Shown in pieces: positions 30,806 through 51,182 of a stretch of DNA of 64,000 nt. Position numbers and translations under genes: made by a program. Within the stretch, counting starts at the first letter, position 1. Every line of letters starts with the position of its first letter. The DNA comes from Bacteroidales bacterium (GTDB lineage Bacteria; Bacteroidota; Bacteroidia; Bacteroidales; Bacteroidaceae): assembly GCA_015654535.1 (NCBI GenBank), contig JAATGU010000059.1, forward strand, positions 1 through 64,000, read 5' to 3'. The notes beneath the pieces are model-generated. The model was not told where the DNA came from. It did no database searches and saw only the letters and a program-made list of their open reading frames with translations.

Positions 30806-30823
30806 TATGAAAAAAATCGAAAT

Positions 30824-32293
30824 ATGAAGATAAAAATTTGTACCACCGTATTTATATTATTAATGACTTTTCATGTAGTGAAGATTAATGCACAGCAAAC
30901 TTTATCCAGCGAATCAGTACATGTTTTATCATCAGATATACGTAAGTACGACTCACAATTATTTATAGAAATGGAACTGGATTTGTCCGACTTAAAACTT
31001 CAATCTAACCGTTCGATGTCTATTGTTCCTATTCTTGAAGCAGAAGGCTATAATAAAGTCTTGCCTGAGGTTTTGGTTAACGGTAGAACGAAACATATTA
31101 TGCATCTTCGCGGAAATCAAAAGAGTAGTGATAGAATTTTATTTACGGAAGTACGCCGTCGCAATAATACCCGCCAAGTAGTGAATTACAAAACCAGTGT
31201 CTTTTTTCAAAACTGGATGCGTCGATCAATTTTGGCTTTACACTTGAATTCATGTGGATGTGAAGGAGGGTCTGAAAAAAACTTCAAACTAGCTAAACTG
31301 AACTTAGCTGACATTGATATGAAAGAGAGTAATGCTTATAGTTGGATACCTTCTGTAGCGTATGTAACTCCAAAGATTGAAGCGATCAAGACTCGTACGA
31401 AAAGAGGAACAGCTTATCTAGATTTTCCAGTAAATAAGTCGATTATAAATCCAGAATATAGGCGAAATCCTATTGAATTAGATAAAATAAAGCAAACTAT
31501 TGATGTGGTTCAAAATGATACAAATGTCTATATTACTAATATTATGATCCATGGATATGCTTCACCAGAGGGAAATTATGCAAATAATAAACGTTTAGCG
31601 GAAGAAAGAGCTGAAGCATTAAGGAAATATGTGAGTAGCCTATACCAATTTAATAATCAAATATTTACGGTGAATTCCACTCCGGAAGATTGGGAAGGAC
31701 TATTACGACGTCTTGATGCTTTGGACTTGAAAGGAAAAGATGAAATAAGGTCTATTATAAACCAAAATATAGATTCTGATATCAAAGAACAAAAGTTAAA
31801 ACAATTAAATGCCGGTAGAACATATCAATATATACTGCAGGAATGCTTTCCCGCTTTACGTCATTCGGATTATACGGTGAATTATATTGTTCGTGGATTC
31901 AGTGTAGCTGAGGTGAAGGAAGTTATTGGTAAACATCCGCAACAACTGAGTTTGCAGGAAATGTTCCTTCTTTCGCAAACATATGAAAAGGGAAGCAATG
32001 AGTTCAACGAGGTATTTGATGTAGCTGTACGTATGTTTCCCAATGATCCTATAGCTAATTTGAATGCTTCATCTATTGCTCTAAGTAAGCGTGATGTGTC
32101 TACTGCTAAAAAATATCTGGAAAAGTCGGATAAGAATTTACCTGAAACAGAGAATAATATGGGCGTGCTTGCAGTTCTCGAAGGGCGGATAAAAGAAGCC
32201 GAGGAACTGTTTGCTAAAGCTTCGGTAGCAGGAGTTATCCAAGCGAAAAAGAATCTCAAGGAATTGGAAAAAGAACAAAAAACAAATAAATGA
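30824..32293 (+). CDS. DUF3868 / OmpA-like protein of the fimbrial operon
   Basis: The product is 489 residues with a signal peptide (TFHVVKINAQ). DUF3868 covers about 20-150. Residues about 195-300 resemble an OmpA peptidoglycan-binding domain (AYLDFPVNKSIINPEYRRNP, IMIHGYASPEGNYANNKRLA, EERAEALRKYV). The end has TPR-like helices (NMGVLAVLEGRIKEAEELFA). DUF3868 proteins regularly accompany DUF3575 and Mfa genes. A role in anchoring or assembling fimbriae between cell wall and outer membrane is inferred. It lies 23 bases before the major subunit gene. Confidence 0.85.
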   Translation: MKIKICTTVFILLMTFHVVKINAQQTLSSESVHVLSSDIRKYDSQLFIEMELDLSDLKLQSNRSMSIVPILEAEGYNKVLPEVLVNGRTKHIMHLRGNQKSSDRILFTEVRRRNNTRQVVNYKTSVFFQNWMRRSILALHLNSCGCEGGSEKNFKLAKLNLADIDMKESNAYSWIPSVAYVTPKIEAIKTRTKRGTAYLDFPVNKSIINPEYRRNPIELDKIKQTIDVVQNDTNVYITNIMIHGYASPEGNYANNKRLAEERAEALRKYVSSLYQFNNQIFTVNSTPEDWEGLLRRLDALDLKGKDEIRSIINQNIDSDIKEQKLKQLNAGRTYQYILQECFPALRHSDYTVNYIVRGFSVAEVKEVIGKHPQQLSLQEMFLLSQTYEKGSNEFNEVFDVAVRMFPNDPIANLNASSIALSKRDVSTAKKYLEKSDKNLPETENNMGVLAVLEGRIKEAEELFAKASVAGVIQAKKNLKELEKEQKTNK

Positions 32294-32316
32294 TTATGAA
32301 TATGTTTAATTAATGA

Positions 32317-33849
32317 ATGAAAAGAATGAAAATTAAAAATTTACTTTTGGCAGGGTTGACGTTTTTTACGCTATTTTCCTGCAAAGATGATGGTAACGAT
32401 GTCATCAACAACCTTGAGAATGAAAAGGCGTACTTCTCTTTGAAGCTTGCTTTTCCTGCGTCTTCTGGGACAAAAGCAACTACAAGTGACGAAAATGGTG
32501 ATGGATATCAGGATGGATTGGCCACAGAGCAGCAATTTCAGAAAGTTGCTGTGATTTTGGTTTCTGCGTCTACCAATAAAGTGACCGATTATGTGGAATA
32601 CACAAAATCGGATTTTGCTCCGGAAGGTGATGCGGCAATTGATAACAATTCCACCAGCCCTACGTCCATTTCTAAAAATTATCTCGCAAAATCAGCTAAA
32701 CTGGTTACTAAAGGAGATGCTAAAGTATATGTTTTTTTAAATCCAACAGCTGACGTTGAGGTTTTTAAAACTGTAGGCACAGATGCTGCTAACATTCTGA
32801 TAACAGAGATGACGGCTTTAACCGCTACTGATATTACTGGAGTAGGGAGCATTGCCAATGCTAATAACTTCTTAATGGGAAATACTGAAACTGCTGTTGT
32901 GCAGACTATCGATGGTACTGTGAAGAATCCTACAACTGTTACAATTGATGTAGAACGTGCTGCGGTTAAATTAGTGGAAAATACAGCGACTGCTACTTTT
33001 GCCGTTACTAACACACTTGTGGCTACTTCGGTAGAAGCCACGCTTGTAAAGTATGATTATAACAATCTTAACAAGCGTTCTTTCTTACTTAAAAATACAG
33101 AATCCAGATCAGATGCGGGAGCGATATCAGGGAGTTACGTGGTGGATCCAAACTTTATTACAGCGAATTATAAATCAACTACGTCTTCAACAGCTCCTTG
33201 GTATACAAGTGACTTCTTTACTATGGATAATCAGAATGTTAATAAAACGTTCCCTACAACTCCTGGTGATATTACCTATTGTCTTGAAAACACAATGATT
33301 AGTAACGAACAATATGATAATAAAACAACTTCTATTGTTTATCAAGCAAGTATCAAAGTGAATGGAAATGCAGCGGCTACTTTCTACACTTATAAGAATA
33401 CAATATATACTTCTTATAGTGCTTTGATGGCAGCATATAATAAAGATTATCCAAATCCAATTCAACAGTTGGGTACAGTTTTTACAGAAGCTGATGTAAA
33501 CGCCGTTTATACTAGTGCAAATTATACTACCGACGTTAAAGCTTTCAATACAAAATTAGTCGATAAGGGAATCAAATGTTATTATAATGGCGTGTGTTAC
33601 TATAATTGGATGATTAAACATTGGGATCAAGCGGGTACTGTTTTAGGAAGAATGGAATTCGGTGTGGTACGTAACAATGTGTACTATCTTGCTGTTACAA
33701 AAATATTGAATATTGGCGAACCTTGGGTCCCGGTAGGTCCAGAGGATCCGGATCCCACACCAGATCCAGATGAAACAGAAAAGGCCTCTCTTGTGATATC
33801 AATTAATGTATTACCTTGGACTGTTCGTACTAACGATATTGAGTTTTAA
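32317..33849 (+). CDS. Mfa1-like major fimbrial subunit
   Basis: The product is 510 residues. The signal ends at a lipobox (FFTLFSCKDD), as in type V fimbrial subunits that reach the surface as lipoproteins. Bacteroidetes type V subunits lose an N-terminal peptide and polymerise by strand exchange; the C-terminal strand here is LVISINVLPWTVRTNDIEF. Residues 1-150 form the N-terminal domain (VAVILVSASTNKVTD). Cys421 and Cys427 form a C-x5-C pair in GIKCYYNGVCYY, which recurs in the second Mfa1-like subunit. It is probably the most abundant shaft protein: a hairpin just after it would reduce expression of the genes that follow. Confidence 0.85.
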   Translation: MKRMKIKNLLLAGLTFFTLFSCKDDGNDVINNLENEKAYFSLKLAFPASSGTKATTSDENGDGYQDGLATEQQFQKVAVILVSASTNKVTDYVEYTKSDFAPEGDAAIDNNSTSPTSISKNYLAKSAKLVTKGDAKVYVFLNPTADVEVFKTVGTDAANILITEMTALTATDITGVGSIANANNFLMGNTETAVVQTIDGTVKNPTTVTIDVERAAVKLVENTATATFAVTNTLVATSVEATLVKYDYNNLNKRSFLLKNTESRSDAGAISGSYVVDPNFITANYKSTTSSTAPWYTSDFFTMDNQNVNKTFPTTPGDITYCLENTMISNEQYDNKTTSIVYQASIKVNGNAAATFYTYKNTIYTSYSALMAAYNKDYPNPIQQLGTVFTEADVNAVYTSANYTTDVKAFNTKLVDKGIKCYYNGVCYYNWMIKHWDQAGTVLGRMEFGVVRNNVYYLAVTKILNIGEPWVPVGPEDPDPTPDPDETEKASLVISINVLPWTVRTNDIEF

Positions 33850-33880
33850 TTGAAAACAGACAATTGGATGAATTAGGCAC

Positions 33881-33920
33881 CAGAAGGAAGATTTGCTATC
33901 TTTCCTTCTGATGTTTTTCT
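33881..33920 (+). terminator. Hairpin with T run after the major subunit gene
   Basis: CAGAAGGAAGAT and ATCTTTCCTTCTG pair over about 12 bp with one bulge around TTGCT, followed by ATGTTTTTCT. It lies 31 bases past the major subunit stop and 140 bases before the anchor gene, and probably acts as a partial terminator. Confidence 0.65.
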
Positions 33921-34061
33921 AAAATAAAAATGCATTTGCCTTGTCGATGCAAAGAAAGACAGGCTATTGGAAGAATTTTAAAAACTTTCCCACTAAAGTA
34001 GACAATCATAGTAACCATTTATGTGGTTGCTTCTATTATATATAAAAAAACAATTATAAAT

Positions 34062-35060
34062 ATGAAAGGAATGGATAAATGTTTTTATATGCTACGAAAC
34101 AAAATAGTCTATGCACTACTTATTGTGCTCGTTGGCGTGTTTTCCGCCTGTTCTATCATGGAGGACGACAGAACAGACTGTCCAGAGGAATGTCATATTC
34201 GTTTTAAATATGATTATAACATGAAATTTGCCAACGCATTTGCCAATGAGGTGAAACAGGTAGCTCTTTATATATTTGATGATAAAGGACATTTCGTAAA
34301 ATTTCAAACCGATGAAGGCAAGGCATTGAAGGCTGATGATTATTATATGTCACTTAATGTTGCTCCAGGAAAGTATCATTTAGTGGCTTGGGCTGGGTTG
34401 GACGGTGAATCATTTAATGCGGAGACACTTACCCCTGGTGTATCCACCTTGACAAATTTAAAAGTTGCTTTACAGCATATCAATGGGGAATCAAACAAGG
34501 ATCTTCATCCATTATGGCATGGTGAGGTAAGTGAGATCACCGTAACGGGGCAATATCAAGAACAAATTGTTTCTTTGGTAAAAGACACTCATCGTGTGCG
34601 TGTAATGTTGCAAAATATTAACGGTGTTTCAGTAGATAATGCAGCCTTCCGTTTTGAAATAACCGATGATAACAGTTTGATAAATTATGATAATAGTCTT
34701 ATCCCTAATGGCAGATTAACTTATTATCCATATATAACTGGACAAAATACCGTGGGGGATATTCAATCTGTTACCACAGTTTATGCAGAAATGCATACTT
34801 CTCGCTTAATTGCCGGAAGTCAATCGCGCCTTCGAATCATTAAAGCGGAGGATAGTAGTGTTGTAATAGATATTCCGTTAACAGCCTATCTGATGCTTAC
34901 TGAAATGGAAGGACATAAAGAGGACATGTCTGCACAAGAATATCTTGATCGCCAAGATGAATATTCGTTGGTGTTTTTTCTTGATGATAATCTATCTTGG
35001 TTGAAAATACAGATTATTATCAATGGATGGACGGTACGTTTTAATAGTTCAGAACTTTGA
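34062..35060 (+). CDS. FimB/Mfa2-like fimbrial anchor subunit
   Basis: The product is 332 residues from the ATG at 34062; an upstream GTG start would add 13 residues without a signal. The lipobox is LVGVFSACSIMEDD. Then DCPEECHIRFKYDYNMKFAN and QVALYIFDDKGHFVKF match the FimB/Mfa2 family, which sits in the outer membrane, ends the fibre and fixes its length. It follows the major subunit after a 212-base gap with a hairpin. Its stop is 8 bases before the next start. Confidence 0.85.
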   Translation: MKGMDKCFYMLRNKIVYALLIVLVGVFSACSIMEDDRTDCPEECHIRFKYDYNMKFANAFANEVKQVALYIFDDKGHFVKFQTDEGKALKADDYYMSLNVAPGKYHLVAWAGLDGESFNAETLTPGVSTLTNLKVALQHINGESNKDLHPLWHGEVSEITVTGQYQEQIVSLVKDTHRVRVMLQNINGVSVDNAAFRFEITDDNSLINYDNSLIPNGRLTYYPYITGQNTVGDIQSVTTVYAEMHTSRLIAGSQSRLRIIKAEDSSVVIDIPLTAYLMLTEMEGHKEDMSAQEYLDRQDEYSLVFFLDDNLSWLKIQIIINGWTVRFNSSEL

Positions 35061-35068
35061 TAAGATTT

Positions 35069-36886
35069 ATGATACATATAAAGTTTGTAGTAAATAATAA
35101 GTTAGTATGGGTGATATTTATTCTATTAACTATGCTTGCTTGTAAGAATGATGTTTTTTCTAACGGAGATGGACATACAGAGGATGAAGCAGGTACCTAT
35201 ATTTCAGTTGCTCTCAATGTGCCTATTACCACTCGAGTCAATCCAACAGGAGGAGAAGAAGGAGACATGCAGGAAGATGGGCAAATAAATGAAAATACTA
35301 TTTCCAATATAATGCTTTTTTTTTATCAGAGTGATAATATAAATCAAGCAATTAGGGATAATACTATTGTCTTAGGTTCAGCTTATTTCGGATCTTCCGA
35401 TATCCTTTCCGAAAATATAACCAGACCACGGAAGGTTGAACTCCCTAAAGGAGTGTATCATGTAATTGTGGTTGCTAATGCTGGTAATTTAACTTCCACG
35501 TTTGGCAGTGGCATTAAAGTAAAAGATGTGTGTGACTATTTACAGAAAACAGCCTGGTTAGAGAATGCCGGAGATTATTCTCAATTTGTAATGGCTTCTG
35601 CTAAAGATGCTTCTGTAAATCTTACAGCATCAGCTACAGAAATGAACCCTGCACAGATTTATGTGGATGTGGAAAGATTGGCTGCCCGGGTAGACTTTAT
35701 TCCGAATACAGGAGTGGGAGCCATCGATTTGAATAATTATTTGGTAAAAGATAGAAATAATAACACTATAGCCAAGGTCATTATTAATAAAATAAAGTTA
35801 ATCAATCAACTCACTGCAGGTTCTTATTTATTAAAACGAGTGGCAGCAAGCGCATCTGTTGTTCCTGAATATTTAGGTGATGAGGAACTGGATGCTGGTG
35901 GAGTGCAATCAAATTATGTAATAGACCCATGGAGCCTTTTGAAGACTAAGGACAATTTAACAGGGCAGCATTTTAGCTCGATAAATGGTGGAGCAGGCTC
36001 TGACATAGTCTCTTCGTTATATAGCAATTATTATAGTAACTTCATTTTGAGTGATGTGGATGCAATAAAGACAACAAACCTTACAAAAGACGGAGTAAAT
36101 TATTATATACTTGGCTATACACTTGAAAATACAACTAACAAAGATTACCAATTCAACGGCTATTCTACAGGAGTAATGTTTGAAGCAACATACATTCCGT
36201 ATAAGGTGACTGAGTATAATGTTAAAAGCAGAGCTAATATAGCGATAAACAATTCTAATGTGATTACTTTTTTTGCTTATAATGATGATGTTATCTGCAA
36301 TTCTTTGGAAGCCGTCGAATTTGCCTCACTTAAAAATACTCAACCTGCAGACGATTTTTTTGCAAAGGTATTTACAACCGAAAATACTTGGCAGGAAGTT
36401 CAGGAGTATGTCAATCGGATTAAAGACACTGATTTGCTCGGCTTTAAATCTTATCTATTGGCAAAAATGGAAGGGCAATCAATGACGGCTAACCTTACTG
36501 AAAATGTTTCTTGGAAAAGTTTTATATTGGCTGCTTATGGCTACTCTATAAATGGAGGTATGGTGAGCATTAATCAAGATGATAAAAACACCAGACTACT
36601 ATTAATTGAACAGGGCATAAAATGTTATCAAGATGGACTTTGTTATTATCCTTATTGGATTCGCCACTCGAATAATAATGCTACTGATGCTGGTATTATG
36701 GAGTTTGGCATTGTTCGCAATAATATATATAAGCTGAAAGTAAATTCATTTTCAGGATTAGGAAAACCTCTCCCTTATATTCCGACTACAGACAAACCTG
36801 ATACTCTTGATGAAGAATCATTTGTACAAATATTTGTCACCGTTAAACCTTGGAAGGTAATAGTACATCCCGAAATTGTACTTTGA
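35069..36886 (+). CDS. Second Mfa1-like fimbrial subunit (accessory or tip)
   Basis: The product is 605 residues from the ATG at 35069; a TTG 12 bases earlier overlaps the mfa2 stop. The lipobox is ILLTMLACKNDV. The N-terminal domain contains ISVALNVPITTRVNPTGG, where an arginine cleavage site would fit. The C-terminal part repeats the major subunit pattern: GIKCYQDGLCYYPYWIRHS, MEFGIVRNNIYKLKV, and the final strand VQIFVTVKPWKVIVHPEIVL. Cys519 and Cys525 match the C-x5-C pair of the major subunit. It is probably a minor component placed between shaft and tip. Confidence 0.8.
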   Translation: MIHIKFVVNNKLVWVIFILLTMLACKNDVFSNGDGHTEDEAGTYISVALNVPITTRVNPTGGEEGDMQEDGQINENTISNIMLFFYQSDNINQAIRDNTIVLGSAYFGSSDILSENITRPRKVELPKGVYHVIVVANAGNLTSTFGSGIKVKDVCDYLQKTAWLENAGDYSQFVMASAKDASVNLTASATEMNPAQIYVDVERLAARVDFIPNTGVGAIDLNNYLVKDRNNNTIAKVIINKIKLINQLTAGSYLLKRVAASASVVPEYLGDEELDAGGVQSNYVIDPWSLLKTKDNLTGQHFSSINGGAGSDIVSSLYSNYYSNFILSDVDAIKTTNLTKDGVNYYILGYTLENTTNKDYQFNGYSTGVMFEATYIPYKVTEYNVKSRANIAINNSNVITFFAYNDDVICNSLEAVEFASLKNTQPADDFFAKVFTTENTWQEVQEYVNRIKDTDLLGFKSYLLAKMEGQSMTANLTENVSWKSFILAAYGYSINGGMVSINQDDKNTRLLLIEQGIKCYQDGLCYYPYWIRHSNNNATDAGIMEFGIVRNNIYKLKVNSFSGLGKPLPYIPTTDKPDTLDEESFVQIFVTVKPWKVIVHPEIVL

Positions 36887-36894
36887 TAAAAAAA

Positions 36895-38172
36895 ATGAAT
36901 ATGAAAAAACAGGATTACATCTATATAGTGTTATATCTCTTTTTTATTTTCGTCACCTTATCCTGTACGGAGGAGGACGAACGGAATACAGACAAATCAG
37001 AAAAAATGACTTATACCATAACCTACCATATTAGTACGCGAAGTAGTAGTGATATAAATGCATCAGATGATGAAATGATGAAAACAATTCTTCTTTTTAT
37101 TGTGGATGCAGATAATAAGATTGAAAAGAAAGTAACTGAAACGTTACCAAGCACAGAACAGCAGCACGAAGTAGAGGTTCAATTGACGGCAGGGAAAAAA
37201 AACGTTTACGGATTTTCAAATCTGACGGCGGAGATGATTACTGCCACAGGGCTCAATGTGGAGGAGGGAGAAATGATGCCGAGTCTTGTTAATGCGACTT
37301 GTGCCATAGCTAATGGCTATGAAATCGATTTGAGTGCTAATAAAGGACTTCCTATGAGCAATCAAACGACTTTTTCCGTAATGAAAACCGCTGGTCAAAC
37401 CTTCGGGATGGAACTGATCCGTATGGTATGCAAAATAAAACTGAATTTTAAAAATGAAACCGGACATACAATTACTTTGAAAAATATTATCCTAAGTCCA
37501 GTCACAACTTCAGCTATATATTTGATGCCTCACTTAGACGGGCAAATGTATCCTCAATTGCCAGGAAGCACAGCGTCAGGTGATTATACCTACGCTTTTA
37601 ATGGAAGCTCCACCTTTGCGGATAAAGGAGAATTAAAAGATTACTTATTTTATATTAACGAGTCACAAGTGTCAGGCGATAGTTGGTTTAAGTTTACATT
37701 GAATACTCAACGGGAAGGATTGGTAGATGAAGTACGCATGTCGCTCACTAATCTGTCTTATTTGAATCGGAATGATTATCTTCCTCTTGATATTATTCTG
37801 ACGGACTATAAATTGGAATTAGAAGTGAAATCTTATCCCCCTATTGGAGGCTATCCAGCGGCTGTAGAGAAAGAAGCTGATGGGTACCATTGTATATTTC
37901 CTGGTGGTGGTCCGTTTGTTATTATTCCCAAACTTATAAAACTATCTGACGGTTCCTCAGTGTCTGTGGCTGATGCTGATTGGAATTTTTCTTATGTAGA
38001 TGCCACAACGACGGTTTTTGATAAAGCTCCAATACTGAAAAACGGTGAAATTAAAGGAACGATGAAATCTTCAGCTAGCGATAAAGTTTTGTGTACCGTT
38101 TCGGTAAACGTGCTTGCATCCGGCAACGTAACCCGTATGCTTTCATACAAAGTATATATAAGCCAAAACTAA
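36895..38172 (+). CDS. Fimbrial accessory lipoprotein, Mfa3/4-like
   Basis: The product is 425 residues from the ATG at 36895; 36901 is equally possible. The lipobox is IFVTLSCTEEDE. MTYTITYHISTRSSSDINA and MMKTILLFIVDADNKIEKKV resemble FimB/Mfa-like N-terminal domains, and a second beta domain follows to the end (VSVNVLASGNVTRMLSYKVY). No closer family can be named. It begins 8 bases after the previous stop and ends one base before the giant gene, so it is translationally close to both. It is likely a fibre adapter. Confidence 0.7.
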   Translation: MNMKKQDYIYIVLYLFFIFVTLSCTEEDERNTDKSEKMTYTITYHISTRSSSDINASDDEMMKTILLFIVDADNKIEKKVTETLPSTEQQHEVEVQLTAGKKNVYGFSNLTAEMITATGLNVEEGEMMPSLVNATCAIANGYEIDLSANKGLPMSNQTTFSVMKTAGQTFGMELIRMVCKIKLNFKNETGHTITLKNIILSPVTTSAIYLMPHLDGQMYPQLPGSTASGDYTYAFNGSSTFADKGELKDYLFYINESQVSGDSWFKFTLNTQREGLVDEVRMSLTNLSYLNRNDYLPLDIILTDYKLELEVKSYPPIGGYPAAVEKEADGYHCIFPGGGPFVIIPKLIKLSDGSSVSVADADWNFSYVDATTTVFDKAPILKNGEIKGTMKSSASDKVLCTVSVNVLASGNVTRMLSYKVYISQN

Positions 38173-38173
38173 A

Positions 38174-41100
38174 ATGAAATCATATATGAAAAAATATACT
38201 AATTATCTATCGATTTTTTTTTGTTTACTATTACTCGTCGCTTTTGCAGAAAAAGTGCAAGGACAAAAAACAATTATACATAAAACGGGACCATTTTACA
38301 CAGATTACATGAGCAATGGCATGCAAAAGACACATATTAACCGAACGACGATTTATGCTTTGCCGACTGCTACTTCTGTAGTTTTGACTGTCCCACCAGA
38401 ATTGGGTGGTAATCCCGCGCCGCACGCTTATTATCGATGGTATAATTATATAACTGATGGATTGTCTACGACAATAACTCCTAATGTTACTTATACAAGC
38501 GGGACGAACGGTAGGTATCTTCTTAATAATAATTCTTTAGCAGCACAGCAAGCAAAGTATAATTTTAGTACGGGAGGTGCTTCTGTAGTGGCTTGTGATG
38601 TTTCGGCGTACAATGATTATATTGATGGAAGCACTACTTTTACAGAGCCTACTCTCTCTTATCGTTGTATTTTTGATATCAGGAATGCAAAGGAGATAGC
38701 TGACTCACTGGCAAATTTAGCTACAGGAAGATATTTAGAAGAGCATACAGTTTATATGCCTTCTACAAAAATAGGTTCTGAAAATTCACGGGTATGCCTG
38801 CAATATGATCGGACAAATTATTATGGATATACCACTACTGCAAAATCGACGATGACAAACGGAAATTTTACTATTTCTGGTACAAGTAGTGATAATGGGA
38901 GAAGACTATATGTAGCTCCACAGGCCGCAGGAAACACTCAAATAATAACTGTAACAATGACGTGTGGTAGTGGTAGTACTGCCCAAACGTATCGTATTGC
39001 CAAGTTTACAATTGTTTTTGTGAGCGATTTACCTATGAAATATAGCGCATTGACTGGGGTTAACGAAAAACGTTCCATCAACTATTTAGATAAAAACTAT
39101 GTATTGTTATCTAAACTTGATTTCGATTACAATACGAAGCCAGCTACTGAAGATAATAATATGTGGTCGAAGCCGCTGGAATGGGATATTTGTTCATATG
39201 GATTTGCCTCTCGTGAATTATATCTTGCTGGCAATCGTACGGCACCGGACTATTGTACGGCGGATTGGAATGAGTATGGTTTTTATAAAACTGCGAATAT
39301 TTTCACTAATAAATACACTTGGTGGAATCAATCAGGTCAAAAAGTTTATGATCGTAGATATTATGATAGTAATAAAGCAGAAAACGGTTATTTCTTTTAT
39401 GTGGATGCTTCGGATAAACCTGGCACTATTGCGAAACTCCGATTGGAGGATAAACTTTGTGCCGGAACTAAACTTCTAGTGTCTGCCGGGATCTGTAATA
39501 TGGCTGGAAGTGGTTCGGATGCAGATGTGAATTTTATATTCAAAGGAATAGACGCAGATGGAACAGAAACCGAGTTGCATAGATTTACATCTGGTGATAT
39601 TACTAAAACTACAATCAGCGAAGCGGAATGGTATCAAGTGTATTATTCATTCAGTTACAACACGAATGTGGATTATGATCACTATATTCTGCAAATTGAT
39701 AATAATGCTTCAAGTACTTCGGGAGGTGATTATGCCGTGGATGATATCCGTATATACCGAAGTAAACCGACAGTACAAGCTAACCAAGTAACACTACCTT
39801 GTGGTAGTGAAGATGCAAAAGTTAAGATCAGAGTAGAATATGCTAAACTTCTTTCAACTCTAGGTAAAACGGAGACAACCGTTGGTGCGGGAGAAAATTT
39901 AGAAGTGAATTATAAATTTTTGGATAGTTCAAAAACTCCAATGGTTTACAATTATAATACACTTGTAGATACTGATATAAATTACGGAGTTGTTAAAATT
40001 AGTACGAATTTTAATACAATGACAGTTTTGTCCTCTACATTGGAAGCTCCTGTAACATATAGTAAGAACCCTGTATTGGCTTATACAGAGACGGAAACAA
40101 TTGATGGAGTAACTTACCGTTACATAGTATTTCAAACGCCAAATAATAATTCGTTGAAAGTGAATGGCACTTATTATACCGCTATAGCTAATTCAAGTGG
40201 AATATTCGGGACGGGTACCTGTGATATGATCAGTGATCCTTTTACTATTATACCTCCCTCTGATGTTACTGTAGACGGTGCAAGTTGGAAAAGTGGAAAT
40301 GGTATGTGTTATGGAAATGAAATCATAATCGGCGCAAAATTGCGAGATAGGATTACGCACGAGGATATTGTATGTCGCTTTGACTGGTATTTAGGGTCGA
40401 AAGAGGAATTTTCAGCAATACCCAATGGAGGGATGTCTGTAGGTCTGGCTTTACAAAAATACAGAGAAGCATATCCTAATCCTACTAATGCTGATACAGA
40501 ATTATCTGCTATATCTGGTGACTTTAATCAGGATGCTTATGCAATACTTCAAAATTTGATTATTAAAAAAAGATTAATATTAAACCAAAAGGAAATCATC
40601 CGATTGATTCGGTTAGGTGAATCTCTTTTAGCTATTCCTATAATAGCAACTGCAGAAAAAACTTCAACAACAACGACGCTTGAATTGTGTTCCGACTATA
40701 TTCCGATAGATGCTACAGAACCTCATAAAAATCCAACTATTGAGTTAGGTCGAGTATTGGATAAGCCCATATCTTTGAGAATGGGATTAAAACAGTTTGG
40801 AGATTTGAAAAACAATTTCACAAAGAGTTTAACAATACCAGTACGTGATTTTAAAAATGCTGACCAAAGTAAAACGAGAAATCTCGTCAAGGCAAGTGAT
40901 ACGAATGTGTATTTAATAAGTACGGATGATCCAGCTATTCAGAATGTTGATTCTTTGAATCCTAGCATTCTAGTAGCAAATATAGAAACTATACATGTAA
41001 CTACTGATACTGGAGATACAGATTATTTTGCTCTTAAGATACCTTCTGGATCTATCACCGTAAAAGAAGGATACACTTATAAAATGGAATTTCATTTCAA

Positions 41101-43063
41101 TCAAGAGCGATTGCTTGGTGATGAGGTCTCCTGTGATGGTGTGACAGCCTTTTATATTAAAATAGTACCTGAATACTTGACATGGACTGGGGTATCAGGT
41201 GATAATTGGAATAACGATGTCAATTGGAAACGTTCTGAAAAAAATGAATTGTATAAAAATACTTTAGATACTTATACTGACGATCTCAATAGTCATGGCT
41301 TTGTTCCTATGAATTTCTCGAAAGTAATAATAGCGAATGTCACTACAAAAGCTCCTTGGTTATACCGATTAACCGGTTCACCGGTCCTTGCTATGGAGAA
41401 TACAAACTATACTGATTATGCAGACATAAAGTCCAATTCCGCAACCACTGATATAGCGTATGATCTGGTAGTGACAACAAACGGAACAAATTATGATTGT
41501 AGCCCTTTTTATGGGAATACTTGCGACAAGATTTACTTTAAGCCAGCTGCTGAAATGCGAAACACGAATTATCTGACATACAACAGAGCATGGGTGGATT
41601 TTGAATTGACTTCCGGTCGTTGGTATATGCTGACTTCACCACTAAAAGCAGTCTTTGCAGGAGATATGTATCTTCCTACCATTAGTGGACGGCAAGAGAC
41701 GGAAGCATTTCAACCTATCACATATAGTACAATAACGAACAATCGTTTCAATCCTGCTATTTATCAACGGAGTTGGGATCATAGCAGCTCAACCGTATTT
41801 AATGTAGGCGGAGATACTGATGATTCTTATATTTCTGCTGATTGGAGTCAGGTATATAATAAAGTAGATGAAGCCTACACTCCCGGCAAGGGATTTTCTA
41901 TCCGTCCTGTTTATGGAACAGAGGGAGTTGATGAGGTGTTATTTCGTCTGCCTAAAGAGGATGTAAGTTATGATTATTATTCCTATGATGGAACAGTTTC
42001 TGGCAATAATACTCCAATAAGTCGTACTGATAATGGAAAATTGGTTTTTGAAAGTAATGCTTCGGATGTGGAATTCGGTTTAACAAATACTACAACAACA
42101 AATAATATTTTTTTGATTGGTAATCCTTTTATGGCTACACTGGATATGAAAAAGTTTTTTGATGCTCACTCTGACTTTGAAAGAAGATTCTGGATTTTGA
42201 CTGGAAATGGACAAAATGCCGTCGCGATAGCCGATGACGGAACATTAACAACTACAGGAAATGAAACATTGGCAGGAACTATTGCGCCAATGCAATCGTT
42301 TTTTGTAGAGAAGAAAAGTTATGTGACTGCTGATCCGATCGTGACCTTTACTCCTAATATGACTATTTCTAAGCCGATAGAGGGATCATTAGTCTGGTCC
42401 GTAAATACGAAAAGTGTCTTATTTGATGATATTTCCTGCCTACATATTACCGCTGAACGTCATGGTCAATTCAGTAATATTCTGATTAAACAGCAAGAGA
42501 ATGCATCTGACGATTACGATGCAAAAGAGGATGTACCAGTATTAATGGATTCTAATCTTACAGATGATCCTATACTTTACTCCATGGCTGGAAACCATGC
42601 AGTTATGATAAATGTGATACCGGCGCTGAGGACTATTCCATTAGGTATACACAGCGATAATGACAACGAAGTGACTTTGACTTTCAGTGGATTGGAGAAT
42701 TTTGGCGGGAGTGTGGAACTTTATGATACACTGTTGAATAAAACCATTATACTGGAGGAAACAAATGCTACAATAGCTGTTCCTGGTAACACACATGATC
42801 GATATTTTTTAAACTTAGCTTGTACAGATAGTAAAAACGCTAAAATTACTATTTACTCACCTGAGAATGGAAAAGTGATTGTGGCAACTTCTTCATCAGA
42901 TAAGCTTCAAAAGATTCAAGTGTATAATTTAAATGGTATGTTATTGAAGGTTTTAAATACTTTGAACACGATAAAAACAGAATTTGATTTACCTGGAGGG
43001 GCATACATTATCCGTGTGCAAAGTCAGGATAGCAGTGAGACGAAGAAAATATATTGTCGGTAG
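38174..43063 (+). CDS. Giant secreted fimbria-associated protein with T9SS-like C-terminal tail
   Basis: The product is 1629 residues with a signal peptide (CLLLLVAFAEKVQGQ; an internal start at 38186 also fits). The body is beta-rich with many small or aromatic residues; about 370-530 resembles a jelly-roll carbohydrate- or ligand-binding module (FFYVDASDKPGTIAKLRLED, YAVDDIRIYRS). Residues about 1000-1500 resemble the repeat region of gliding or surface proteins (YLTWTGVSGDNWNNDVNWKR). The last 80 residues look like a type A sorting domain: IQVYNLNGMLLKVL and LPGGAYIIRVQS, then KKIYCR. In P. gingivalis the last mfa gene, mfa5, encodes a large tip protein with such a tail. This is probably a tip adhesin; its binding target is unknown. 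Confidence 0.75.
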   Translation: MKSYMKKYTNYLSIFFCLLLLVAFAEKVQGQKTIIHKTGPFYTDYMSNGMQKTHINRTTIYALPTATSVVLTVPPELGGNPAPHAYYRWYNYITDGLSTTITPNVTYTSGTNGRYLLNNNSLAAQQAKYNFSTGGASVVACDVSAYNDYIDGSTTFTEPTLSYRCIFDIRNAKEIADSLANLATGRYLEEHTVYMPSTKIGSENSRVCLQYDRTNYYGYTTTAKSTMTNGNFTISGTSSDNGRRLYVAPQAAGNTQIITVTMTCGSGSTAQTYRIAKFTIVFVSDLPMKYSALTGVNEKRSINYLDKNYVLLSKLDFDYNTKPATEDNNMWSKPLEWDICSYGFASRELYLAGNRTAPDYCTADWNEYGFYKTANIFTNKYTWWNQSGQKVYDRRYYDSNKAENGYFFYVDASDKPGTIAKLRLEDKLCAGTKLLVSAGICNMAGSGSDADVNFIFKGIDADGTETELHRFTSGDITKTTISEAEWYQVYYSFSYNTNVDYDHYILQIDNNASSTSGGDYAVDDIRIYRSKPTVQANQVTLPCGSEDAKVKIRVEYAKLLSTLGKTETTVGAGENLEVNYKFLDSSKTPMVYNYNTLVDTDINYGVVKISTNFNTMTVLSSTLEAPVTYSKNPVLAYTETETIDGVTYRYIVFQTPNNNSLKVNGTYYTAIANSSGIFGTGTCDMISDPFTIIPPSDVTVDGASWKSGNGMCYGNEIIIGAKLRDRITHEDIVCRFDWYLGSKEEFSAIPNGGMSVGLALQKYREAYPNPTNADTELSAISGDFNQDAYAILQNLIIKKRLILNQKEIIRLIRLGESLLAIPIIATAEKTSTTTTLELCSDYIPIDATEPHKNPTIELGRVLDKPISLRMGLKQFGDLKNNFTKSLTIPVRDFKNADQSKTRNLVKASDTNVYLISTDDPAIQNVDSLNPSILVANIETIHVTTDTGDTDYFALKIPSGSITVKEGYTYKMEFHFNQERLLGDEVSCDGVTAFYIKIVPEYLTWTGVSGDNWNNDVNWKRSEKNELYKNTLDTYTDDLNSHGFVPMNFSKVIIANVTTKAPWLYRLTGSPVLAMENTNYTDYADIKSNSATTDIAYDLVVTTNGTNYDCSPFYGNTCDKIYFKPAAEMRNTNYLTYNRAWVDFELTSGRWYMLTSPLKAVFAGDMYLPTISGRQETEAFQPITYSTITNNRFNPAIYQRSWDHSSSTVFNVGGDTDDSYISADWSQVYNKVDEAYTPGKGFSIRPVYGTEGVDEVLFRLPKEDVSYDYYSYDGTVSGNNTPISRTDNGKLVFESNASDVEFGLTNTTTTNNIFLIGNPFMATLDMKKFFDAHSDFERRFWILTGNGQNAVAIADDGTLTTTGNETLAGTIAPMQSFFVEKKSYVTADPIVTFTPNMTISKPIEGSLVWSVNTKSVLFDDISCLHITAERHGQFSNILIKQQENASDDYDAKEDVPVLMDSNLTDDPILYSMAGNHAVMINVIPALRTIPLGIHSDNDNEVTLTFSGLENFGGSVELYDTLLNKTIILEETNATIAVPGNTHDRYFLNLACTDSKNAKITIYSPENGKVIVATSSSDKLQKIQVYNLNGMLLKVLNTLNTIKTEFDLPGGAYIIRVQSQDSSETKKIYCR

Positions 43064-44383: not shown

Positions 44384-45547
44384 TTACTCAACAATAACAA
44401 CACGGTTTAAAGAATTTCCGTCAAATAGACTATTTGTTCCACCTTTGCCGCTTACAGTTAATTGATTAGGATTGACATTGTACTCTTTTACCAAGATATT
44501 GAATACATTCTGTGCACGTTTTTCGCTCAAGGTCTGATTATATTCGGTAGTACCCGTTGCTTTGTCCGCATATCCTGTGATAGTGTATTTTTTGGAAGGG
44601 CTTTTCTTTATTTGCTCTGCGGTGAATTTCAAATTTATTTTTTCTTTTGCAGAGATTTCAGCTTCATTAAGGTCAAAGAAAACCGTTCTTGTTACGGAAA
44701 TAGTTTCTGTCTTTATTGTCGGTTCTTGTTTCTTGTTCCTTTCATTATTTAACTCATCTTGCAAACGGCGTGTATAAGCTTCCTGTTCTTTCAATTTATC
44801 CGTAATTGCTTGCATTTCACTTACAGAGATGCCAGTGGATATTACTTCAGATGTGCTTACAGATTTAAATCCGCGTGTCTTAAACTTATAAGTAAGTCCT
44901 ACTGTTGCAGTAAGAAAACCCTCACCTCTTCTACCTCCTACTTGTCCATCAAATTCTTGTGGGACCAATGTTCCTCGGACGTCTAAGTTTATATCCAACG
45001 CGCTGGAAAGGCGGAAACGGTTAAGAATACCTACGTTGGTTGCAAATTCATTATCGTGTGTGCCTTCATAAGAATGTACATATCCAAAACCTAAATAGGG
45101 GATTGGTTCGTATATGCGTTTCTCATTATATCCCGCAATCATGGAGACAACATTGAACATTACATCTCCGTGAAGGTTCATATAGTCCCATTTTTGGGTA
45201 TAATTTCCATCAACATCCGGTTGATTACTTAGATACCATCCCTGACCTTTTGAATAACCTTTCAGTTTTAGTCCGCTATATTGCAAGCGCAATCCTAATC
45301 CTGGAGTAAACCATTTGCCTACCGCAATATCAAGGGCAGGTGCGACACGCTTCCCAAATGAGCCAATGTGATCATCTTCACCAAAATAGACCTGACCTCC
45401 TACTCCTGCAGATATGAACCAGTTATCCCAAAAACGGTTAGTAACATACTGATGTCTGGACTGACTAATGGTTGTTTCTTCTTTACTTTGTGCAAATAGT
45501 CCTATCGGTGCTATCGCTAAAAAAATGAATAATAATTTTGCTTTCAT
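44384..45547 (-). CDS. OmpA family outer-membrane protein
   Basis: The product is 387 residues with a signal peptide (IAPIGLFAQS). Residues about 40-235 form the barrel (FWDNWFISAGVGGQVYFG to TVGLTYKFKTRGF). A short coiled segment (TDKLKEQEAYTRRLQDELNN) links to the OmpA domain at about 285-387: YTITGYADKATGTTEY holds the conserved Asp and QTLSEKRAQNVFNIL the conserved Arg. It binds peptidoglycan. It is paralogous to 4325-5434 and transcribed away from the STN-DUF3575 gene from TACTTTTG at 45600-45607. Confidence 0.9.
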   Translation of the reverse strand: MKAKLLFIFLAIAPIGLFAQSKEETTISQSRHQYVTNRFWDNWFISAGVGGQVYFGEDDHIGSFGKRVAPALDIAVGKWFTPGLGLRLQYSGLKLKGYSKGQGWYLSNQPDVDGNYTQKWDYMNLHGDVMFNVVSMIAGYNEKRIYEPIPYLGFGYVHSYEGTHDNEFATNVGILNRFRLSSALDINLDVRGTLVPQEFDGQVGGRRGEGFLTATVGLTYKFKTRGFKSVSTSEVISTGISVSEMQAITDKLKEQEAYTRRLQDELNNERNKKQEPTIKTETISVTRTVFFDLNEAEISAKEKINLKFTAEQIKKSPSKKYTITGYADKATGTTEYNQTLSEKRAQNVFNILVKEYNVNPNQLTVSGKGGTNSLFDGNSLNRVVIVE

Positions 45548-45607: not shown

Positions 45608-45726
45608 CTTCTTGACAAAAGATTTTTATTTATATAAAGTTATTTATCTTTTATACATTTTAGATTTACAAGTTTTTTTTGCCATGAAAAGATTAAATTA
45701 TTATTTTATCTATTAATTAAAAGCTG

Positions 45727-45734
45727 TAATTTTG
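45727..45734 (+). promoter_or_regulatory. -7 box of the STN-DUF3575 gene
   Basis: TAATTTTG matches TAnnTTTG and lies 41 bases before the ATG at 45776. No good -33 is seen, which would fit use of an accessory sigma factor or activator. Confidence 0.45.
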
Positions 45735-45775
45735 GACATTATATTTACTTGTTATTTAGCTTTTTATTTTAAAAA

Positions 45776-46987
45776 ATGAAATTTATGTTCAAATCAGTGA
45801 AACGAAAAATAAAAAGGATTAATGTACTTTTTTTACTGTGTGTATTTTTTAGTATAAATGTTCAACCCCATGGAAAGGCTAATCTTATTAAAGGGAAGAA
45901 ATCATTGATAGAGATCTTGCGATTTGTGAGCAAATCTCAAAAGGTATATATTAATTTTAATCCATTGGAAATTAATCATATTTATGTAGATGAAATGCCT
46001 GTCGGCAAAAATTCCATTAAAGACTTGAATAAAGTATTGGCAATCAATAATTTGGAACTTAAACGGATTAGCGGACCTTATTTATATATTCAGCCGATTC
46101 GTAAATTTGTCTTAACAGGAAGTGTGGAGGATAAAGATACAAAACGTCCGATCCCTTTGGTTACCATTGTTGTTGACGAGAAAAACTCTGTTCAAACAGA
46201 CTCCAACGGACAATTTAGCTTTACCCTACGCAAAGGTAAATATAGTATAGTAACGAAAAATAATTTATATTATCTGCAAACAAAAAATATATCATTAACT
46301 GCTTCAAAGAAAATAAAAGTTGAATTGAAAAAAAAACAATTGAAAACAGAGTTACCTGTGTTCCCCAATATAATGGAATTCTATTTTCCTTCCATAAACA
46401 GTTCATGGACTGATTCCTTATTAGTTATTACACCTGACCGTTTAGATTTAATGCAATTGTCTACTCCTTCATTATCAAGAAAATCGGTAGATTTTGTATT
46501 GAAAAGTAACTTGCTTTTGTGGGGAGTAGCTAATCCTAATCTCGCCATAGAGAAAAAAATAGATAATAATTTTACAATTGAATTAATGTTAAGTAGTAGT
46601 TCGTTAGAATATGGATCCCATAAGCAATTTAAGTATCTATTAATTCAGCCAGAAATCCGTTATTGGTTATCTCGAAGTTTTTCTGGAAGTTTTTTTGGCT
46701 TTCATACTCATTACGCTATTTACGATGTCGGAGATAAAGAATATTCATTGGAAAAAATAAAAAAACTTAATAATAATCGATATAAGGGGCATTTATTTGG
46801 AGCAGGATTTTCTTATGGTTATCAATGGGAGATTAATAAGCATTGGAATATTGAAACAGTTATGGGAATTGGATATGCTCACTTAAGTTATGATGAATAT
46901 TCAAATGATTGTTGTAAAAAGAAGAGACGCAATTCCATTTATCTAACCCCTACAAAAGCTTCGTTTAGTTTTGTTTATCTTTTTTAA
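45776..46987 (+). CDS. STN - carboxypeptidase-like - DUF3575 barrel fusion (putative surface sensor)
   Basis: The product is 403 residues with an N-terminal signal (VLFLLCVFFSINVQ). Residues 35-106 resemble an STN domain: LIEILRFVSKSQKVYINFNP, then a repeated IKDLNKVLAINNLELK unit. Residues 111-185 are a CarboxypepD-like beta domain (GSVEDKDTKRPIPLVTIVVD, TDSNGQFSFTLRKGKY). Residues 242-403 are DUF3575, closely matching the fimbrial-operon protein at 30236 (LIQPEIRYWLSRSFSGSFFG, FSYGYQWEINKHWNIET, final SFVYLF). STN domains of TonB receptors touch FecR-type anti-sigma factors. Sigma and FecR genes lie 1 kb downstream. I infer an outer-membrane sensor for that pair. Confidence 0.75.
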   Translation: MKFMFKSVKRKIKRINVLFLLCVFFSINVQPHGKANLIKGKKSLIEILRFVSKSQKVYINFNPLEINHIYVDEMPVGKNSIKDLNKVLAINNLELKRISGPYLYIQPIRKFVLTGSVEDKDTKRPIPLVTIVVDEKNSVQTDSNGQFSFTLRKGKYSIVTKNNLYYLQTKNISLTASKKIKVELKKKQLKTELPVFPNIMEFYFPSINSSWTDSLLVITPDRLDLMQLSTPSLSRKSVDFVLKSNLLLWGVANPNLAIEKKIDNNFTIELMLSSSSLEYGSHKQFKYLLIQPEIRYWLSRSFSGSFFGFHTHYAIYDVGDKEYSLEKIKKLNNNRYKGHLFGAGFSYGYQWEINKHWNIETVMGIGYAHLSYDEYSNDCCKKKRRNSIYLTPTKASFSFVYLF

Positions 46988-47145
46988 TTTGCAAAGTAAA
47001 TATACAAAGGATTAAATACCTTTTTGATAACTAAATACAAACTATTTTTATTGAAAATAATTATTTTCTCTTTAGAAAACCAGTATAATTAGTATAATCT
47101 ATTGTCATAGGAAAAAGAGAAATAATTGTTTAATAGCGGAATAAT

Positions 47146-47964
47146 ATGAATTTAATTTTTGATTCTTCCTATTTTATAAGTTTCAATGTGCAAAAAGATA
47201 GTCCAATTGACATTAAAATGCAGGATGATAGTGTTATCTTATTTATTTTATCTGGAAAAGTTTCAATTTCATGCATTGAATTCATTCATAAGATACTCAT
47301 ATCAGGGGATATGGTATTTTTGCCTCCAAGTGCACTTTATAAATTATTGTCCATTGAAGATGCTGTTGTTATGAAATGTAAAATTACTCGAAATACAAGG
47401 ATACTGATGACCCGATGGCTTAGAAGTTTATCAGGGTACATTGAATCGAATGAAAAACATCATTCAATATTGCCTATTAAATATAATGTAATGCATTTTT
47501 TAGAAATATTCAATTCGGATCATGCACCTTCAGGATTTAATACATCTGAGATGAATGAATGGAAATGTAAGGGATTGATTTTACTTCTTAAGAGTTCTTA
47601 TTCACAGAAAGAATTGATTACTTTTTTTTCGCCTATTTTGGGTGGAAATATAGATTTTAAAGAATTTGTATATGCAAATAGTTCTTCTGTCAATAACTTA
47701 CAGGAATTTGCTGATTTAGCCAAATGTAGTTTAAGTATGTTTTGTAGGGAGTTTAAAAAGAATTTCGGTGAGCCAGCCTATCAATGGATACTAAAACGCA
47801 AGTCTGAACTTGTGTTGGAAGATATACTTTCCACGTCTATTCCTTTTCAGGAATTAGCGGATAAGTATCAATTCTCGTCGCAGGCACACTTTACAAAGTT
47901 TTGTAAACAGAGGTATAATCAGACTCCAAAGGAACTTCGTAATAGTAAACAATTATATGTATGA
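47146..47964 (+). CDS. AraC family transcriptional regulator
   Basis: The product is 272 residues. The N-terminal part is a cupin-like sensing region (VILFILSGKVSISCIEF, ISGDMVFLPPSALYKLL). The C-terminal 95 residues form the AraC HTH pair: LQEFADLAKCSLSMFCREF and IPFQELADKYQFSSQAHFTK, ending KQRYNQTPKELR. It is cytoplasmic. It is 158 bases after the STN-DUF3575 gene and 35 bases before the sigma factor gene and may be in the same transcript. It probably controls fimbrial or sensor genes. Confidence 0.85.
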   Translation: MNLIFDSSYFISFNVQKDSPIDIKMQDDSVILFILSGKVSISCIEFIHKILISGDMVFLPPSALYKLLSIEDAVVMKCKITRNTRILMTRWLRSLSGYIESNEKHHSILPIKYNVMHFLEIFNSDHAPSGFNTSEMNEWKCKGLILLLKSSYSQKELITFFSPILGGNIDFKEFVYANSSSVNNLQEFADLAKCSLSMFCREFKKNFGEPAYQWILKRKSELVLEDILSTSIPFQELADKYQFSSQAHFTKFCKQRYNQTPKELRNSKQLYV

Positions 47965-47999
47965 ATAAAAGGCATTTAATATAATAAATAATAATCTTT

Positions 48000-48557
48000 A
48001 TGTCAATATCTTGGGATAAGTTAAAAAAGGGAGATGAGTTGGAGTGGAAAAATATGTTTCGAAAACATGCTGAATTTCTTTATGCTTATGGAATGAAGTT
48101 TGCTCATAATGAAGATTTAGTAAAAGATTCCATCCAAGAACTTTTTATAGCGATTTATGAAAAACGAAATTCACTCAGTGAACCTTCATTTTTAAGAGCT
48201 TACCTATGTTCCTCACTTAGAAACAGATTGATAAATGAATTGAAAAAAGAAGCAACAATTCCACTGGAAGAAGGAGACTACTCTTTTACCCTATATATTG
48301 ATGATAAGAATGTGGATGAGGAGGAAAAGCAATATGAAAAAATACAGAATATGCTCAACAAACTTACTAATAGACAACGAGAAGTCATTTATCTAAAATA
48401 CTTTAAAGGTTTGTCAAATGAGGAGATAGCATGTACTCTTAACATTAATAAGCAATCTGTGGCTAATCTTCTTTCAGAAGCTATCCGACAGATGAAAAAA
48501 GAGGCTTCTTTTATTCTATTCTTGTTACTTATTTTACGTAGATTATTAGGATTATGA
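48000..48557 (+). CDS. ECF-type RNA polymerase sigma factor
   Basis: The product is 185 residues. Region 2 is at about 20-60 (FLYAYGMKFAHNEDLVKDSI, then QELFIAIYEKR) and region 4 at about 120-165 (LTNRQREVIYLKYFKGLSNE, EIACTLNINKQSVANLLS). It ends in a hydrophobic tail, FILFLLLILRRLLGL, that might touch the membrane or the anti-sigma factor. It directs polymerase to selected promoters when released from FecR. Its stop overlaps the FecR start by four bases (ATGA), showing coupling. Confidence 0.92.
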   Translation: MSISWDKLKKGDELEWKNMFRKHAEFLYAYGMKFAHNEDLVKDSIQELFIAIYEKRNSLSEPSFLRAYLCSSLRNRLINELKKEATIPLEEGDYSFTLYIDDKNVDEEEKQYEKIQNMLNKLTNRQREVIYLKYFKGLSNEEIACTLNINKQSVANLLSEAIRQMKKEASFILFLLLILRRLLGL

Positions 48558-49435
48558 AAGAAGTAGATCTAATAGCATTGCTGGAGAGAATTTCCTCAGA
48601 AGAAGGTGTACCTTTGGTATTGGAAGAAGAAATTCAATTAAAAGAAGCTTTTTCTCACATTCCATTGCTTGATGAGAAACCTGAAAAAAATGTACTAAAC
48701 GAGATGGAAGAAAGATTGTTTAGTAAAGAAATAATATTTGATAGAAGAAGTAAAAATAATCTTCATTGGCTTTTTGTAAGTGTGGCCGCATTGATTGCCA
48801 TATTGTTTGGTTGTGGTTTGTGGATAACGAGTTTGGAGATGAAATATGCTACGGGAAAAGAAGGACAATTGTCTTTTGTGTTACCTGATCAATCAATTGT
48901 GAGATTAAATGAAAATAGTTCTGCAGAATATAATAAATTCCTATTCTTTTTCAGTAAAAAAATATATATGAAAGGTGAGGCTTATTATATAGTTACTAAG
49001 GGAAGACATTTTACGGTTGAAACAGCTTTATATAAAATTTCCGTGTTAGGAACCCGTTTTATGGTTTCAGAAAAGGATAAATTTGATGTTTTCTGTTATG
49101 AAGGTAAGGTTAAGGTGGAAAATTTGAGAACTAATGAAGTAAAGGTCTTGATAAAAGGACAAAGTTTTAGTTCAGATCGGGCTGTGAAAGAAAAACAACC
49201 TGGTTTTGTAACTCATAATTATGAGTTTGATAATGCCCCATTAATTGATGCAATTGGTGCCATCGAGAAAGAATATAAAATAACGATAGGAAATAAGGAC
49301 TTTTGTCGAGGCTTATTCTTTACCGGAGCTTTTCCGATAAAAGATCTGAAATTAACTTTAGATGTTGTTCTGGCGCCCTATAATATGAGATGGGAACAAT
49401 TGTCATCGAATCATTACCGAATTGTTCGTCAATAA
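48554..49435 (+). CDS. FecR family anti-sigma factor
   Basis: The product is 293 residues. The cytoplasmic N-terminus (1-75) binds sigma; one membrane helix is at about 78-97 (FVSVAALIAILFGCGLWI). The FecR domain follows (about 110-200: LSFVLPDQSIVRLNENSSAE, YYIVTKGRHFTVETALYKIS, VLGTRFMVSE) and then the DUF4974 domain (about 225-293: FDNAPLIDAIGAIEKEYKIT). In known systems it relays a signal from an outer-membrane STN domain to sigma. No SusC-type receptor follows, unlike most Bacteroides sigma/FecR pairs; the only STN domain nearby is at 45776. Confidence 0.92.
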   Translation: MKEVDLIALLERISSEEGVPLVLEEEIQLKEAFSHIPLLDEKPEKNVLNEMEERLFSKEIIFDRRSKNNLHWLFVSVAALIAILFGCGLWITSLEMKYATGKEGQLSFVLPDQSIVRLNENSSAEYNKFLFFFSKKIYMKGEAYYIVTKGRHFTVETALYKISVLGTRFMVSEKDKFDVFCYEGKVKVENLRTNEVKVLIKGQSFSSDRAVKEKQPGFVTHNYEFDNAPLIDAIGAIEKEYKITIGNKDFCRGLFFTGAFPIKDLKLTLDVVLAPYNMRWEQLSSNHYRIVRQ

Positions 49436-49655
49436 AATCTAAGAATAATATATTGATTTCATTTTAAATGGATATTAATAAATAAATTATAATCTGGTAT
49501 TAGGCATTTGAACTTATGATTTTCCCTATATATATTACCAATAGGACAAACTTGTAGACTCATGCAAACAATTGGATTAACAAGATTTTATAAGAATAGT
49601 AATTCTGCATCAGAGCTTAGAATTTTAAAGATTAAAACTAATAAAAATGTAAAAT

Positions 49656-51147: not shown

Positions 51148-51182
51148 GATGTATAGATGATAGAAATAAGTTAAACTAAAAA

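Follow-up and report, generated by a model that had tools for sequence, protein, structure and literature searches.

The window analysed here is a 64,000-nucleotide stretch of a Bacteroidales bacterium genome (contig JAATGU010000059.1), and it harbours a module in which the gene for a 403-residue fusion protein ending in a DUF3575 barrel, a barrel of fimbrial type, is followed on the same strand by genes for an AraC-family regulator, an extracytoplasmic function (ECF) sigma factor and a FecR-type anti-sigma factor (Table 1). The fusion begins with what looks by eye like a signal peptide and continues with an STN-like domain, a CarbopepD_reg_2 domain, a linker and an eight-stranded barrel. Pfam recognizes CarbopepD_reg_2 (PF13715) at residues 113–190 (E 4.6e-11) and DUF3575 (PF12099) at residues 233–403 (E 7.7e-50; 169.1 bits against a cut-off of 21.1), the AlphaFold2 model places eight strands within residues 240–402, and neither Plug nor TonB_dep_Rec is matched by Pfam; NCBIfam adds a weak SusC-head match and one match at chance level. 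The module is best read as a variant of FecR/ECF cell-surface signalling that works without TonB.

A gap of 35 bp separates araC from the sigma gene, which overlaps fecR by 4 bp. The window FecR has one hydrophobic stretch (residues 70–91, read by eye) and scores below the FecR_C cut-off (E 0.028), while three sister FecR proteins of the same slot score above it (E 5.3e-7, 1e-7 and 4.3e-6). The original prediction, made from the letters of the window, had named AraC, sigma and FecR genes downstream of the fusion with no SusC-type receptor beside them, and both points hold, the SusC-type gene noted (58048–61254) lying 8.6 kb beyond fecR. Its three-domain account of the fusion stands for the carboxypeptidase-like and DUF3575 parts; the STN part found no such backing, as Pfam STN gives no match at E≤1 in residues 35–106 of the full protein and none with the N-terminal domain cut out (E≤10 asked, with HMMER filters dropping most matches above ~0.1), and its support comes instead from topology and profile comparison. 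The distant SusC, which has Plug and CarbopepD matches, was also considered as the partner of FecR and rejected on account of its distance and of having no STN match (E≤0.01); the SusC/SusD/DUF3823 run to which it belongs (58048–63793) is likewise without an STN match.

Table 1. Features of the module and of the neighbouring fimbrial operon, in window coordinates
Feature	Position	Strand	Basis or remark
DUF3575 fusion, 403 residues	45776..46987	+	Open reading frame (ORF) call, Pfam, AlphaFold2 model
STN-like domain (probable), residues 35–107, predicted periplasmic	45878..46096	+	Topology and profile alignment; no Pfam match
CarbopepD_reg_2 domain, residues 110–190	46103..46345	+	Type seen in the SusC N-terminal extension
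DUF3575 barrel, residues 233–403	46472..46984	+	
Two-part element, AACCAGTATAA ... TTGTC, constant spacing	47075..47110	+	Before araC in 8/8 Bacteroides genomes
AraC-family regulator	47146..47964	+	HTH_18 E 4e-14
ECF sigma factor	48000..48557	+	Sigma70_r4_2 E 6.2e-15, Sigma70_r2 E 5.5e-9; NCBIfam TIGR02937 above cut-off
FecR-type anti-sigma factor	48554..49435	+	FecR E 6.5e-16, 59 bits against a cut-off of 24
OmpA-family protein, divergent upstream neighbour	44384..45547	-	OmpA E 3.5e-19
Fimbrial operon: DUF3575, DUF3868/OmpA, two Fimbrillin_C, Mfa2, weak FimA-like, 1629-residue protein	30236..43063	+	Pfam

The N-terminal domain of the window fusion is probably STN-like, a label supported by its predicted topology, by profile alignment, by its place before the CarbopepD domain and by the FecR gene beside it. 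AlphaFold2 (mean pLDDT 72.9 for the whole fusion, 80.9 for residues 28–192 and middling within the domain itself) predicts strand-helix-strand-strand-helix-strand-strand at residues 42–107, that is, two helices and five strands, some of the strands being just two to three residues long. This topology agrees with that of the published signalling domain, which has two helical segments according to PMC7782687 and one sheet of two and one of three strands according to PMC11637429. When a profile of the domain is aligned with 26 STN domains drawn from four genomes, the probability is 48% (score 25.1, against a maximum of 21.1, or 18.5%, in 60 column shuffles), and it rises to 76% when 18 STN domains from Dysgonomonas are added (score 30.6, a value without matched shuffles); it reaches <1% with sigma factors and with the N-terminal parts of FecR, and 22% with the C-terminal part of FecR, which is itself STN-like. 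A profile search with the N-terminal domain over 719 ORFs and 29 fusion proteins returns a Dysgonomonas STN protein as its top non-relative, weakly (E 0.028), followed by an unrelated 792-residue ORF (0.33) and three further Dysgonomonas STN proteins (0.43–0.91).

The module recurs as a unit. A full-length fusion is present in 8 of the 158 Bacteroides genomes searched (E≤1e-40), and in all eight the order fusion–AraC–sigma–FecR is kept on one strand, gene order at the seven loci outside the window being assigned by similarity to the window proteins. The sigma proteins of these eight loci all end in a hydrophobic tail of ~16 residues, somewhat diverged in genome G383. Compared with G291 (L110), the segment from OmpA to FecR (window 43077–49435) has the opposite orientation with respect to the fimbrial operon.

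With Dysgonomonas included, the sigma/FecR pair stands beside the fusion in each of the 11 genomes looked at, eight of Bacteroides and three of Dysgonomonas, a count that leaves out 19 database fusions (P0002–P0006, P0011–P0024), some of them perhaps copies of counted ones. At 33 other DUF3575 loci (named records), our own profiles, each built up from four seeds and therefore liable to overlook remote members, find FecR at none and one lone sigma gene. For 24 of these loci, all with a plain DUF3575 (184–229 residues at 23 of them), Pfam FecR and sigma models match 0 of 96 neighbouring ORFs of 130–380 residues at E≤0.01, a figure read from the absence of FecR and sigma among families matched by two or more members; the positive controls, one FecR and one sigma, do match. 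With 12 FecR genes in the 4.1 Mb of the window's genome, the chance of one lying ≤3 kb from a given gene is ~2% by our own arithmetic. Across four genomes, 38 of the 39 places with a Pfam STN match are within 2 kb of a FecR gene, the D. mossii fusion being one such place, and in G291 an STN neighbour accompanies 15 of the 16 FecR genes, the sixteenth having the Bacteroides fusion.

A second family of fusions is found in Dysgonomonas, where 16 database proteins of 350–362 residues carry a Pfam STN domain joined to DUF3575; two more from genomes bring the set to 18, every one of which passes STN at E≤1 (best 3e-15). Of the 29 fusions, 11 have a CarbopepD match, as many as there are fusions of the Bacteroides type, so this domain is missing from the Dysgonomonas fusions. 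Of 61 sampled genomes in the family to which D. mossii belongs, three, D. mossii included, hold a full-length STN/DUF3575 protein (E≤1e-60), and in each the genes run sigma–FecR–STN/DUF3575–DUF3868–fimbrillin–Mfa2, all on the same strand, with Pfam confirming sigma, FecR with FecR_C, STN, DUF3868, fimbrillin and Mfa2. The gap between fecR and the fusion gene of D. mossii is 11 bp, in a run of genes with gaps of 11–236 bp; in G523, two sigma genes precede the FecR–STN/DUF3575 run. As it occupies the slot of the plain barrel, the STN/DUF3575 fusion is the DUF3575 gene of the Dysgonomonas fimbrial run, whereas the window fusion is encoded outside any DUF3868/fimbrillin/Mfa2 run, in a run of its own.

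In a tree of 69 DUF3575 domains (11 from Bacteroides fusions, 18 from Dysgonomonas fusions and 40 others, with groups defined beforehand by domain content), each fusion type forms one side of a branch, with support of 100/99 and 100/95. The Dysgonomonas type groups with the plain DUF3575 of B. reticulotermitis (100/98), and a topology forcing both fusions into one clade is rejected (p-AU 0.018). Because the two types stand apart and the single clade is rejected, the STN–DUF3575 join was probably made twice; several long branches in the tree keep the evidence for two origins at good, not final. DUF3575 is also fused to other partners: P0008 and P0009 have a weak OmpA-like N-terminal part, P0010 has an N-terminal part without such a match, and the protein at L121:9158–10543 appears by eye to place DUF3575 first and an OmpA-like part after it.

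We propose that a fimbrial-type DUF3575 barrel with a likely STN-like head, encoded beside araC, sigma and fecR genes, mediates TonB-independent cell-surface signalling with the state of the fimbriae as its likeliest signal, and we put the probability of this reading at roughly 55%. The putative signalling role is well supported by comparative genomics; the usual nutrient receptor has no part in it, and what the cell likely detects is its own pili or some other cue at the surface. Domain content, gene order, recurrence and the two fusion clades are observed, whereas location, FecR contact, signal and regulated genes are inferred as follows. The barrel would lie in the outer membrane and the STN-like and CarbopepD domains on its periplasmic side. 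There, the STN-like domain would contact the FecR C-terminal domain and, depending on the state of the barrel, stabilize FecR or release it; the state sensed would most likely be the assembly or occupancy of fimbriae on the cell surface. FecR would in turn free the sigma factor for transcription of araC–sigma–fecR from a conserved element, AraC would then adjust its target genes, and the fimbrial operon, where present, would be a target. The wider proposition, that Bacteroidales have twice made a pilus-operon barrel into a TonB-free sensor by giving it an STN head and its own FecR/sigma pair, so that assembly or contact is reported to pilus transcription, is one we hold at slightly less than even odds.

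The element before araC was found by pattern in seven genomes and by eye in G383 (AAGC). Its in-sample scores are 31–51, the best other score in the 13 loci scanned being 10.2, inside a coding gene, and seven sites keep scores of 21–47 when left out of the model in turn. It is a candidate promoter by which sigma may raise araC–sigma–fecR expression. Its reading as a classic ECF promoter (AAC ... GTC) was set aside, the spacing being too long for the consensus, and so was a role as fimbrial promoter, since the scanned loci showed no copy of it ahead of a fimbrial operon. Given that result, any action of sigma on fimbriae in Bacteroides would most likely pass through AraC; no AraC would be needed in Dysgonomonas, where the genes lie in one run. 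Phase-variable control was also rejected, the inverted repeats listed for 42500–51500 (25 of 52 pairs) being only imperfect ones of 17–30 nt, mostly A/T-rich.

The fimbrial role is strong in Dysgonomonas and partial in Bacteroides. The DUF3575 barrel family leans towards fimbriae, as our own profiles find DUF3868 at 23 of the 33 other DUF3575 loci and DUF3868 together with Mfa2 at 17. In Bacteroides luti, a run of DUF3575, DUF3868, fimbrillin and Mfa2 genes (Pfam-checked) starts 0.8 kb after fecR. The fimbrial operon of the window, in which the FimA-like match and the secretion-tail match of the 1629-residue protein both fall below cut-off, is a possible target of the module; its first protein (30236–30805), which the original prediction had called a homologue of the barrel encoded 15 kb away, is a DUF3575 protein (E 1e-70), and while that distance holds for the first gene, the last (38174–43063) ends just 2.7 kb from the fusion gene. 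The repeat TGTYYTTTT occurs upstream of module-linked fimbrial operons, once in L034 and twice, at a distance of 21 bp, in each of L108 and L120; it precedes three of four such operons against 1 of 19 plain ones and is absent in the window, and as the pattern was chosen post hoc, its reading as an AraC-type repeat is a lead only. In G291, a second AraC gene lies directly before the fimbrial operon.

A number of observations weigh against fimbrial-state signalling through an STN-like head. None of the 11 proteins of Bacteroides-type architecture matches Pfam STN at E≤1, a first profile comparison of the N-terminal domain with the Dysgonomonas STNs alone gave a probability of 1.9%, and fold searches with the fusion listed just its CarbopepD and barrel parts, although lists filled by these two say nothing on the STN part. 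FecR genes with no Pfam STN within ≤2 kb number 4 of 11 in G163 and 5 of 12 in the window's genome, that of the module included, so that the lack of one is nothing special, and the association of STN with FecR carries less weight in these two genomes. A fimbrial operon lies within ~20 kb of the module in only four of the eight Bacteroides genomes and ~740 kb from it in G383; at E≤0.001, DUF3868 has no match in G163, G382 and G384, all of which keep the module, and Mfa2 has none in G382 and G384. The element was not seen ahead of any fimbrial operon in the loci scanned, and it is weak in G383, scoring only 6.7 when that site is left out, below the best chance-like score of 10.2. The Dysgonomonas context comes from three genomes, two of them closely related. 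As an observation the original prediction is largely right, and for its claims the picture is as follows: the co-occurrence of the fusion with sigma/FecR is borne out, the plain DUF3575 loci lacking the pair; signalling outside the TonB systems fits, but an STN domain on a non-receptor beside sigma/FecR is not unique to DUF3575; and the suggested link to fimbriae is firm where the fusion sits in the fimbrial run and incomplete in Bacteroides.

The lack of DUF3868 and Mfa2 matches, the 740-kb distance and the DUF4382 gene that follows fecR in some genomes indicate that the Bacteroides module may have another or a second output. It is accordingly conceivable, if unlikely, that FecR/sigma surface signalling takes place with the barrel sensing a non-fimbrial cue, such as envelope state, the divergent OmpA or a small ligand, and that the outputs in Bacteroides are the araC operon and the DUF4382 gene. 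The three genomes that keep the module without a DUF3868 match would fit this, as would DUF4382 after fecR in G163 (Pfam E 2.4e-27), G291 (2.5e-27) and G384 (2.2e-30) and, as a shortened frame, in G382 (1.9e-5), and OmpA as divergent neighbour at six of the eight loci; yet the gene after fecR is something other than DUF4382 in the window, G121, G135 and G383, the Dysgonomonas fusion lies inside the fimbrial run in all three genomes, and the family at large leans to fimbrial loci. Directly after fecR, the window has a gene for a tyrosine-recombinase-like protein with arm and SAM-like domains (49656–50858), in which a Pfam catalytic-domain match is absent; some relatives have the DUF4382 gene at this position.

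It is improbable that the fusion represents a reduced SusC, or a SusC decoy, whose STN–CarbopepD head restrains FecR while the barrel serves as a mere outer-membrane anchor and senses nothing. The CarbopepD domain does match SusC N-terminal extensions in fold, and there is a second non-receptor STN class, STN–CarbopepD proteins of 514–523 residues beside sigma/FecR in three genomes (L153:1038–2582(-), L154:1414–2985(-) and L156:2349–3902(+)), with no TonB barrel match and ~300 additional residues in which Pfam finds nothing notable. The FoxA signalling domain restrains FoxR already without signal, according to PMC11637429. An arbitrary anchor, however, would not need to be a DUF3575 barrel in both fusion clades, and the Dysgonomonas fusions lack the CarbopepD domain. 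By eye, a neighbour of the STN–CarbopepD gene in L153 and L156 resembles ispE. That the N-terminal domain is not STN-like and sigma/FecR are unrelated neighbours kept by general synteny is very improbable, for although the Pfam STN result and the 1.9% comparison would suit it, the pair is present in 11 of 11 genomes of two separate lineages and absent at plain DUF3575 loci, and profile and topology support an STN-like domain.

The literature consulted (e.g. PMC7782687 and PMC11637429) links cell-surface signalling of the FecR/ECF kind to TonB-dependent receptors. Among the literature entries listed by the searches, together with passages or abstracts of PMC7782687, PMC10434189, PMC9249621 and PMC11637429, none describes an STN–DUF3575 protein, and DUF3575 is rarely named, being listed without function in one paper. 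If fimbrial-state signalling by the module is true, the signalling head would be a portable part needing no transporter, the DUF3575 barrel could be tested as the part of the outer membrane that registers the fimbrial state, and a route to fimbrial regulation in Bacteroidales would come into view.

Like the TonB-dependent systems FecA/FecR/FecI and FoxA/FoxR/FoxI, the module combines an ECF sigma factor, a FecR-type anti-sigma factor, for which FecR_C passes its cut-off in sister proteins but not in the window, and a predicted outer-membrane protein with a probable STN-like head that would meet FecR in the periplasm; unlike theirs, its DUF3575 barrel is predicted to have eight strands and matches neither plug nor TonB-barrel models, the barrel of TonB-dependent transducers having 22 strands. 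With the DUF3575–DUF3868–fimbrillin–Mfa2 operons of Mfa/FimA-type fimbriae, also named type V pili, it shares the same DUF3575 barrel, and the Dysgonomonas fusion sits in its very slot, whereas the plain DUF3575 of those operons is without sigma/FecR beside it. The 514–523-residue proteins resemble the fusion in joining STN, or in the fusion a probable STN-like domain, to CarbopepD on a non-TonB-receptor next to sigma/FecR and differ in having no DUF3575 barrel. The STN–SusC/ECF sigma/anti-sigma glycan loci of Bacteroidetes have STN, the counterpart of the probable STN-like domain of the fusion, and CarbopepD_reg_2 (N-terminal extension) in a head before the barrel, and they too have sigma/FecR next door; the module differs in that its run includes an AraC gene and that it lacks both a SusC barrel and a neighbouring SusD. 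In PMC7782687, SusC receptors under ECF/anti-sigma pairs have STN in addition to the CarbopepD-type extension, with the extension placed before STN, whereas in the window fusion the STN-like domain comes before CarbopepD.

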